The notes under the pieces were generated by a model, which saw only the letters and a program-made list of their open reading frames with translations, did no database searches and was not told the DNA's origin. The translations under genes and the position numbers were made by a program. From Pseudonocardia kunmingensis (GTDB taxonomy: Bacteria; Actinomycetota; Actinomycetes; Mycobacteriales; Pseudonocardiaceae), in the NCBI RefSeq assembly GCF_006716445.1, contig NZ_VFPA01000001.1, forward strand, positions 1,984,001-2,048,000: DNA of 64,000 nt. Direction: 5' to 3'. Shown piece after piece: positions 19,520-22,757 of this stretch (the stretch's first letter is position 1; each line of letters begins with the position of its first letter).

Positions 19520-21019
<1,500 letters not shown>

Positions 21020-21179
21020 GGGGTGGTTACGCCTCCTCGATGGGCTGGTGCGGCGGGCCACGCTACTCGGTGCGCGAGGGCCCGCCGGGGTGGGTGGAGC
21101 AGTGAGGACGGCGTGCGGCGGCGCCGCCGGTTGCGGCGGAACGCGGGGTGCACCGGGCTGCCCTCCTCGTGCGAGTGGC

Positions 21180-21265
21180 AGGCGCCCTTGTTGCGTGCAA
21201 CGGCCTGGTCATCGAGCGTGGCGGGGCCCGGGTGCGGGCAGCCCGTCGCAGCGCCTCTCGAGACC
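21180..21265 (-). promoter_or_regulatory. Probable S-adenosylhomocysteine (SAH) riboswitch
   Basis: Read on the minus strand, the ahcY leader has the layout of the SAH riboswitch aptamer. P1 is GGUCUCGAG (21265-21257) with CUCGA-U-GACC (21216-21207), nine pairs with one bulged U. The conserved GCGCUGC follows directly (21254-21248). A GC-rich P2 hairpin comes next, then CCACGCUC (21221-21214; consensus CCAGGCUC, one change). The pseudoknot pairs AGGCGC (21256-21251) with GCGCCU (21185-21180), and AAGG precedes the latter much as AACGG does in the consensus. It sits about 160 nt upstream of the ahcY start. In known cases SAH binding turns ahcY on. Found by eye; a covariance-model score would decide. 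Confidence 0.72.
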
Positions 21266-21285: not shown

Positions 21286-21315
21286 AGCATCGCCATCGGC
21301 GGTCGACGCTGTCAA
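21286..21315 (-). promoter_or_regulatory. Promoter of ahcY
   Basis: On the minus strand a perfect -35 TTGACA (21315-21310) is followed after 18 bp by GATGCT (21291-21286), three of six matches to TATAAT including the A at position 2 and final T. The start would be near 21279, about 14 nt before the first base of the riboswitch P1 stem. The rest of the 332-bp gap (21020-21351) is GC-rich leader without a gene. Confidence 0.55.
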
Positions 21316-21351: not shown

Positions 21352-22638
21352 TCAGCCCAGCAGGTGGTCGCGCAACAGCGACTCGGCCGCGCTCGTGCGG
21401 CCGCGGGCCGCGAGCAGCCCCGCCGGCACCACCGCGAAGTCGGCGTCCACCACGATCGGCACGCCCGCGAGCGCGGGAGCGAGCACCGGGTCGGCGCGCA
21501 GGGTGGCCGCCACGGCCGCGAGCCCGCCCGCGCGGTCGCGCTGGCGGAACACCCCGCCCGACAGCACCACGAGGCCCAGGTCGCGCCCGGCGTCGTCGTG
21601 CACGCGCAGGTGCCGGCGGACCGCGACCACGGCGGCCACCGCGGCGACGCGGCGGTCCTCCGCGGCGCTGCCGGGATCGCGCGGCACGTAGCCCACCTCG
21701 CTCGCCATCCGGGCGACCGTGGGGCCGAGCAGGTCGGCCTCCACGGGGTCGACGATGCCCTCGGCCTGCCCCTCCACCAGCACCCCACCGGCGGCGGCAC
21801 GGACGCCGAGGTCGCCCTCGACGGTGCGGACGGCGGCCTCGGTCCCCGCCGAGGAGTGGACGTCGGTGGTGGCGCACCCGACGTCGACGACCAGCGCGCG
21901 GGCGTCGCAGATGCGCGCGAGCTCCCCGGCCGCGTGCCCCACCGCGTCGGGGGTGACCACGCGGACGAGCTTGCGGAACCGGGGTGCGACCGCGGGGCCG
22001 CGGCCGCCGATGGCGTGGCGGCGGTACAGCTCGGCGAGCGCGGCGCGCGCCGGGCCCGGCACCACCTCTCCCCGGCGCGGCAGGACGTTGTCGCAGCTGA
22101 CCACCCGGCGCCCGGTGGCGCGCAGCAGCGCGAGGGCGTCGTCGTGCGCCGCGGCGTTGCCCGCGAGCACGATCGGGTGCCGGATCCTGGCCCTGGCCAA
22201 CCGGCCGGCGTTGTGCAGCAGCCCGGCCGGGTCGTCGCCGTCGGACCCGCCCACCAGCAGCACGACGCCGGGGCGGGCGCTGCGCAGCGACCGCACGTCG
22301 GCGGGCTCGAGCGGGCCGGCGTGGACGTGCACGACGTGCGCCCCCGCCGTGACGGCCACGCGGTGCCCCGCCTCGGTCGCCGAGAGCCGCTCCGAGCCGA
22401 CCACGGCGAGCCGCAGGCCACCGCCCGCCGACGAGCAGGCCAGCAGCTCGGGCTCCCCGCCGGAGCCCGCCGCGGACACGGCGCGGACGGCGGCGTCCAT
22501 GCCCGCGAGCACGTCACCGGTGGTCGTGGGGTGCTCCGCGAAGCCGGCCAGCGCGCCGTCGGGGTGCACGAGCACGGCCTTGGTCCACGTGGAACCCACG
22601 TCGAGGCAGACCGATGCGGCCTGGTCGGTGGGCGTCAC
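21352..22638 (-). CDS. GlmL/MutL-family ATPase (glutamate-mutase reactivase-like)
   Basis: A 428-residue member of the MutL/GlmL family (ASKHA ATPase fold), which in clostridia accompanies coenzyme-B12 glutamate mutase and is thought to repair or load it. Visible motifs are the phosphate-1 loop CLDVGSTWTKAVLV, LLVGGSDGDDPAGLLHNA, VVDVGCATTDVHSSAGT (second phosphate loop) and LVVLSGGVFRQRDRA (adenosine site). No glutamate mutase S or E subunit gene is in the window, so it is an orphan here. The GTG at 22638 is preferred to a TTG at 22695 because homologues start near VTPTDQAASVCLDVGS. Confidence 0.8.
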   Translation of the reverse strand: MTPTDQAASVCLDVGSTWTKAVLVHPDGALAGFAEHPTTTGDVLAGMDAAVRAVSAAGSGGEPELLACSSAGGGLRLAVVGSERLSATEAGHRVAVTAGAHVVHVHAGPLEPADVRSLRSARPGVVLLVGGSDGDDPAGLLHNAGRLARARIRHPIVLAGNAAAHDDALALLRATGRRVVSCDNVLPRRGEVVPGPARAALAELYRRHAIGGRGPAVAPRFRKLVRVVTPDAVGHAAGELARICDARALVVDVGCATTDVHSSAGTEAAVRTVEGDLGVRAAAGGVLVEGQAEGIVDPVEADLLGPTVARMASEVGYVPRDPGSAAEDRRVAAVAAVVAVRRHLRVHDDAGRDLGLVVLSGGVFRQRDRAGGLAAVAATLRADPVLAPALAGVPIVVDADFAVVPAGLLAARGRTSAAESLLRDHLLG

Positions 22639-22757
22639 GACGAACGAGCGTAACCGCTGGTGGCTCCGACGGCTGCGCGTCGCGTCGATGGTCAAGCCAC
22701 CCGTCCGGAGGTAACTTCCGCATGACGCACGGCACAGTCGCCGACAGGAGGCCCCTG

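Follow-up and report, generated by a model that had tools for sequence, protein, structure and literature searches.

The window analysed here (the whole 64,000-nt stretch of Pseudonocardia kunmingensis DNA) contains at 21265-21180 (-) what is almost certainly an aptamer of the SAH riboswitch class, and we consider it likely that this aptamer, an actinobacterial variant of the SAH riboswitch, forms part of a translational switch which senses SAH and turns ahcY on. A preliminary description of the same DNA had already read this leader as an SAH-class riboswitch for ahcY, and the class and the target are backed by a separately built model, covariation among relatives and genome-wide specificity, with ahcY, the expected target, as the next gene; the expression platform, a leader ORF that overlaps ahcY and a change in the aptamer core, however, had no place in that description.

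The aptamer plan could be read directly from the sequence (Table 1). P1 comprises 9 bp with one bulged U, GCGCUGC lies right behind it, and CCACGCUC closes P1 at 21221-21214 (-), the position where the printed Rfam consensus reads CCAGGCUC; these elements had been named in the preliminary description and were all recovered. All six pairs of the pseudoknot AGGCGC/GCGCCU can form in the window, and P2 has 4 bp plus an extension. A longer P2 and a spacer hairpin had been put forward as features of an actinobacterial form, and both are present here, P2 and its loop together spanning 24 nt where the median is 15. P2 plus loop is, however, as long or longer in 29 of 184 distinct copies, and the hairpin occurs in only two of them, the window element and its nearest kin L148. 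The hairpin was thus rejected as a class feature, being lineage-specific, and to judge from these copies both traits are local variation and no class features.

Table 1. Features of the ahcY leader in the window (positions within the window)
Feature	Position	Strand	Basis or remark
SAH-class aptamer (P1, P2, pseudoknot), predicted	21180..21265	-	Rfam RF01057, model R1, covariation in relatives
P1 5' strand GGUCUCGAG (GGUC+UCGAG)	21257..21265	-	read from sequence
P1 3' strand CUCGA-U-GACC	21216-21207	-	bulged U at 21211
Pseudoknot 5' strand AGGCGC	21251..21256	-	partner GCGCCU 21185-21180
P2 and apical extension CGGG CU GCCCG CACC CGGGC CCCG	21222..21245	-	fold; P2 pairs in relatives
Spacer hairpin GUUG-CACG-CAAC	21190..21201	-	sequence
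Competing hairpin GCGCC/GGUGC, UGCC/GGCA, CUC/GAG	21150..21185	-	MFE of 21185-21146
Candidate promoter TTGACA 21315-21310, GATGCT 21291-21286	21286..21315	-	sequence; 18-nt spacer
Shine-Dalgarno (SD) GAGGAGG of leader ORF	21162..21168	-	sequence; 8 nt before GUG 21153
Leader ORF, 45 codons from GUG	21016..21153	-	predicted translation; frame statistic in 44 same-genus leaders
ahcY, adenosylhomocysteinase, 499 aa	19520..21019	-	PF05221 E 1e-145, PF00670; TIGR00936 E 2.5e-180

The TTGACA hexamer of the preliminary description is present, and the two hexamers recur unchanged in L148-L151, where they are 17 nt apart, with TTGACA/GATCCT in L199, but a generic sigma-70 scan lists no promoter site in the leader. 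TTGACA/GATGCT is a probable promoter, from which we infer a transcript start about 10-14 nt before P1. The gene upstream of the ahcY leader (21352-22695, -) is MutL/GlmL-like (PF13941, E 3.6e-94), under NCBIfam cut-offs.

Scoring of the leader with the Rfam covariance model, a check proposed in the preliminary description, did not yield a match at 21265-21180 (-) at the gathering threshold. In a 351-nt stretch RF01057 was the best of three Rfam matches, scoring 21.5 bits where the cut-off is 37, with E 0.062 across 4227 families, and in the own whole genome the window element ranked second (E 0.384) after a 38-bit copy, so that Rfam alone is not decisive. This 38-bit copy lies directly before metH, a gene assigned because its product resembles a MetH from the same genus; the tested 492-aa part of that relative matches the NCBIfam MetH models under their whole-protein cut-offs. 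Elsewhere in the window, an Ms_IGR-5 sRNA (RF02471, 58829-59035, -, 95.9 bits) is the sole Rfam match at the gathering threshold.

Leaders were collected from 60 same-genus genomes (own included), from 80 named actinobacterial ahcY loci and from wider samples, and a new model, R1, was trained on 44 actinobacterial aptamers at most 90% alike; the window element and L148 were kept out of the training set, which includes the metH copy of the own genome and other same-genus copies. R1 E-values are rough. Within the window, R1 gave the element 59.2 bits (E 1.3e-10), the next-best match having 16 bits. Across the 9.1-Mb genome only two matches were clear, the metH copy with 76.4 bits and the ahcY copy with the same 59.2 bits (E 1.8e-8), and the third match had 24.1 bits (E 0.4).

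Covariation among the leaders of relatives, also suggested in the preliminary description as a check, was found in P1, P2 and the pseudoknot. With 44 sequences aligned by MAFFT, 94.4% of the cells were paired, both sides had changed in nine of 20 pairs, among them the outer five pairs of P1 and three of P2, and none of 500 shuffles matched any of five covariation measures. When 100 sequences were fitted to the model, which leans the result toward that model, 95.7% were paired, and shuffles reached the observed value in 0 of 500 cases for four measures and in 1 of 500 for the fifth. Because part of the copies were gathered by patterns and models in which core letters are fixed, those letters prove little and only the free ones are informative. 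The pseudoknot had been described as co-varying, and in 183 of the 184 distinct copies all six of its pairs are standard: the outer pair is A-U in 166, G-U in 15, G-C in two and U-U in one, the inner pair is C-G in 167, U-A in 15 and U-G in two, and one copy has an internal G-U. Double changes account for 17 copies (AGGCGU/ACGCCU in 15, GGGCGC/GCGCCC in two), and the U-A form occurs before metH in families f2 and f29.

In the predicted fold of the region downstream of the aptamer, the pseudoknot 3' strand is taken by a competing hairpin that also buries four of the seven bases of the SD together with the GUG start codon (21153). Folding energy was not relied on as evidence, the 122-nt stretch folding no better than its shuffles (z 0.56) and the MFE of this hairpin, -17.4 kcal/mol, being weak alone (z -1.20; 24 of 200 shuffles were equally good). 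Among 121 distinct copies, however, 106 have an MFE stem with at least four pairs from the pseudoknot 3' strand that covers at least three SD bases, and stems of four pairs from this strand are present in 96.7% of copies versus 65.5% of shuffles. Pairs of the platform stem change together (position 7 is C-G in 87 copies, G-C in six, U-A in six and U-G in four), and the SD that follows the pseudoknot strand is purine-rich and able to pair back with it. By eye, the SD covered in short ahcY leaders and in metH leaders is that of the gene itself.

Terminator-like hairpins were counted in 16 of 88 ahcY leaders, none of the 16 from same-genus loci, and in one of 89 metH leaders, by a crude pattern; L069 and L240 fit direct masking of the start as well, and no more than two Us are present in L245, L303 and L315. 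A terminator scan found none in the window leader. In five leaders from outside the genus (L229, L299, L310, L330, L332), such hairpins carry U-runs and use the whole pseudoknot strand. Every type of platform predicts that the closed pseudoknot is the ON state, and an ON direction of the switch is highly probable; the SAH riboswitch class is reported to upregulate ahcY in the accessible text of PMC7057144.

The SD masked in the window lies ~143 nt before the ATG of ahcY (21019) and belongs to the leader ORF, whose TGA (21018-21016) overlaps this ATG as AUGA. An ORF of this kind is present in 44 of 54 distinct same-genus ahcY leaders; eight of the remaining ten have no start codon in place, and two run directly into ahcY. 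Its end falls in the 4-nt overlap in 25 of the 44, at most 20 nt upstream of the ahcY start in nine, farther upstream in eight and past it in two. Hence 34 of the 44 end within -20 to +4 of the ahcY start, where about one third is expected, and when the frame was drawn at random per cluster, the observed value exceeded expectation with 22 clusters (16.1 versus 7.7, 0 of 20000 draws), with 12 clusters (9.4 versus 4.5, p 0.0002) and with 26 clusters (19.1 versus 8.9). Moreover, an ATG or GTG stands 9-15 nt past the first SD in 31 of the 54 leaders, versus 11.7% of control windows. The final statistic covers the 54 same-genus leaders, 12 leaders of other genera, some of them terminator-like, being left out; ahcY starts were assigned by a heuristic, except that L011 and L153 were set by hand to the CCCCATGACC start, with which L011 counts as overlap and L153 as past, and L319 has no aptamer by pattern search.

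The base pattern of the leader ORFs is not coding-like, with GC1/2/3 of 0.725/0.725/0.765 compared with 0.554/0.469/0.887 at the start of ahcY, in a set of 56 leaders (30 clusters) that includes 12 from outside the genus. In addition, the leader peptide of the window has no Pfam match, and the idea of a conserved functional peptide is thus unsupported. It seems that the reading frame is kept while the peptide is not, which fits coupling between the leader ORF and ahcY.

We propose that in the absence of SAH the pseudoknot 3' strand GCGCCU would pair downstream and hide the SD and GUG of the leader ORF. As SAH accumulates, the aptamer would close, the pseudoknot would claim GCGCCU and the leader ORF would be translated; because the leader stop overlaps the ahcY start, terminating ribosomes would restart on ahcY, and the SAH hydrolase made in this way would clear SAH. 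On balance we lean toward such a relay, in which leader translation and its coupling to ahcY would carry the signal. From comparison of sequences, the proposal draws on the aptamer fold, the target gene, the competing hairpin and the preferred frame of the leader ORFs. Since ahcY has an SD of its own (GAGGAGG, upstream of its ATG), it may also start alone.

Two other explanations accept the SAH riboswitch and give the leader ORF a different part. Ribosomes on the ORF might keep Rho off the ~130-nt leader with no restart at AUGA; leader coverage would likewise favour ORF ends near the ahcY start, as in the 34 leaders, and the own SD of ahcY also suits this explanation, but the exact 4-nt overlap in 25 of 44 leaders is tighter than Rho protection needs, and for ppe2, the analogous case, the result with one construct spoke against Rho (accessible text of PMC11260477), so that we hold Rho protection to be unlikely. 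Equally improbable in our judgement is direct control of ahcY, through its start region or its mRNA stability, with an incidental leader ORF: the ten same-genus leaders that have no such ORF, the missing coding signature and the direct SD masking or terminator-like hairpins of other genera agree with it, whereas the frame bias of the ORFs, the ATG or GTG found at the proper distance past the first SD and, in the window, the long distance from the masked SD to ahcY all speak against it.

The relay preferred here has a counterpart in the ppe2 system, where, according to the accessible text of PMC11260477, a B12 riboswitch controls a short leader ORF, uPPE2, that overlaps ppe2 as AUGA, and experiments showed that ppe2 depends on translation of this leader, mainly by termination-reinitiation. 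The arrangement of a riboswitch-controlled short ORF overlapping the gene start is alike in both; as far as that text goes, the ppe2 switch differs in aptamer and ligand, is an OFF switch, serves a gene which, unlike ahcY, has no SD of its own, and was established experimentally for one gene, whereas ours is seen in many leaders of one genus and proposed from sequence comparison. Among the matches listed for the open-licence literature, and in the accessible texts, those of PMC2864571, PMC10907184 and PMC9495176 included, no leader ORF was seen in combination with an SAH riboswitch.

Compared with RF01057, the window element has the same plan of P1, P2 and pseudoknot, the same GCGCUGC and CCAxGCUC, and the same targets, ahcY and metH. 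It differs in its score below the cut-off, in the leader ORF between aptamer and gene, in the pseudoknot, where the actinobacterial AGGCGC/GCGCCU represents a double compensatory change relative to the consensus GAGCGC/GCGCUC, and in the core, where C and G replace the G and C of the consensus CCA[G]GCUC and CAA[C]GG. All 184 distinct copies have the C in CCA[C]GCUC and the G in AA[G]G, with GCGCUGC and the A of CCA kept, and the two differing letters have the appearance of a paired change; the counting pattern left both letters free, many copies came from searches with R1, a model biased toward C and G at these places, and the comparison is with the printed Rfam consensus. Presumably the two-letter change represents a swapped contact.

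From the class and the targets, SAH is very likely the ligand of the ahcY-leader aptamer. An aptamer of SAH-like form might, with a changed core, recognise a different molecule (SAM, adenosine or some other adenosyl compound), and both core letters depart from the consensus in every copy, but the change resembles a paired swap and the targets are ahcY and metH, which makes this explanation very unlikely. The letters that we take to correspond to G15, C16 and A29, moreover, do not vary in 100 copies. In the accessible text of PMC7057144, these three residues contact the adenine of SAH, which is bound at 32 nM, and SAM 1,000-fold more weakly. The paired core change would provide a natural variant for structural study of how SAH is discriminated from SAM.

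The surveys with R1 were run with strict filters, which lose weak matches. At E <= 0.01, R1 matched in 53 of 60 same-genus genomes, in 127 of 200 genomes (23 of 46 genera) of a family sample and in 75 of 394 genomes (19 of 138 genera) of a class sample, the own genome included in each; at E <= 0.001, a phylum-wide sample gave 10 of 396 genomes (3 of 237 genera), namely the own genome and nine of the same order. The seven same-genus genomes with no R1 match are G009, G011, G019, G020, G032, G045 and G055, in the last of which ahcY is broken off at a contig end. The Rfam model found a copy in 54 of the 60 at E <= 1, and above its cut-off in 15 (own included). A chance resemblance in GC-rich DNA, to which the Rfam score under the cut-off, its E-value in the own genome and weak Rfam matches at E <= 10 in 10 of 14 control genomes might point, can practically be dismissed in view of the R1 E-value in the window, the spread through the genus and the covariation. 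Very probably, then, the window element is a real SAH-class riboswitch in an actinobacterial variant, and annotation at the Rfam cut-off overlooks copies such as this one.

The expectation that an actinobacterial form would extend the class is weakened, as SAH riboswitches of Mycobacteriaceae, likewise actinobacterial, are already in print (accessible text of PMC3766115) and a quarter of the same-genus genomes, the 15 above, have a copy over the Rfam cut-off; beyond Mycobacteriaceae, no actinobacterial SAH riboswitch appeared among the matches listed for main texts of the open-licence literature, as far as these texts are accessible. Copies of family f2, whose hosts are probably mycobacterial, have AGGCGU/ACGCCU and stand immediately before metH. 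By a strict letter pattern, the element was found in six of the 80 named ahcY loci, at most 700 nt from ahcY in Actinomycetospora, Jidongwangia, Dactylosporangium, Herbihabitans and Actinoplanes, and farther away in Amycolatopsis orientalis, where the aptamer (L087, 520-593, +) lies ~900 nt before ahcY with no clear sense gene between. The named ahcY loci that score best belong to Saccharothrix, Amycolatopsis, Kutzneria and Tamaricihabitans, a list possibly without near kin. The new parts are the proposed leader-ORF relay, the apparent paired change in the core and the further target genes.

Among 186 distinct copies, 89 stand before metH and 88 before ahcY, together 177, and nine elsewhere, one of which is L087, with no assigned target. 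Four of the nine, in four genomes of two genera, precede genes for MOSC proteins (L230, L324 and L327 by domain match, L322 by eye), and two, in genomes of one genus, precede a metK-ahcY operon (L313, with metK by TIGR01034, and L314, by eye). Single copies lie directly before an adenosine deaminase gene (L273, 1501-1571, -; NF006854) and before a SAM-dependent methyltransferase gene (L285, the same place as L335; PF08241). In the proteobacterial SAH regulons, as far as the accessible text of PMC4239095 describes them, ahcY is likewise a core target and metH is included in Comamonadaceae; metF, in contrast, is core there, and metK is stated not to be under SAH riboswitch control in the Proteobacteria studied, unlike the two copies before metK-ahcY found here. 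For an SAH riboswitch with adenosine deaminase, the open-licence literature gave no match. The added targets suggest that in some actinobacteria the SAH signal may reach beyond SAH hydrolysis, for example to adenosine removal by adenosine deaminase. The AhcY reaction is reversible, and removal of adenosine by this enzyme would pull it forward.

Taken as a whole, an ON relay retained in much of the genus, in which the switch would control a throw-away leader cistron with a freely changing peptide instead of ahcY itself and AUGA reinitiation would turn ahcY on, built on a subtype with a swapped core contact and belonging to a wider SAH-relief regulon, is a reading that we regard as evenly balanced. 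If true, a single aptamer class would, in one bacterial class, serve three platforms: one that masks the SD of the gene directly, one with a terminator-like hairpin and one that works through a leader-ORF relay.
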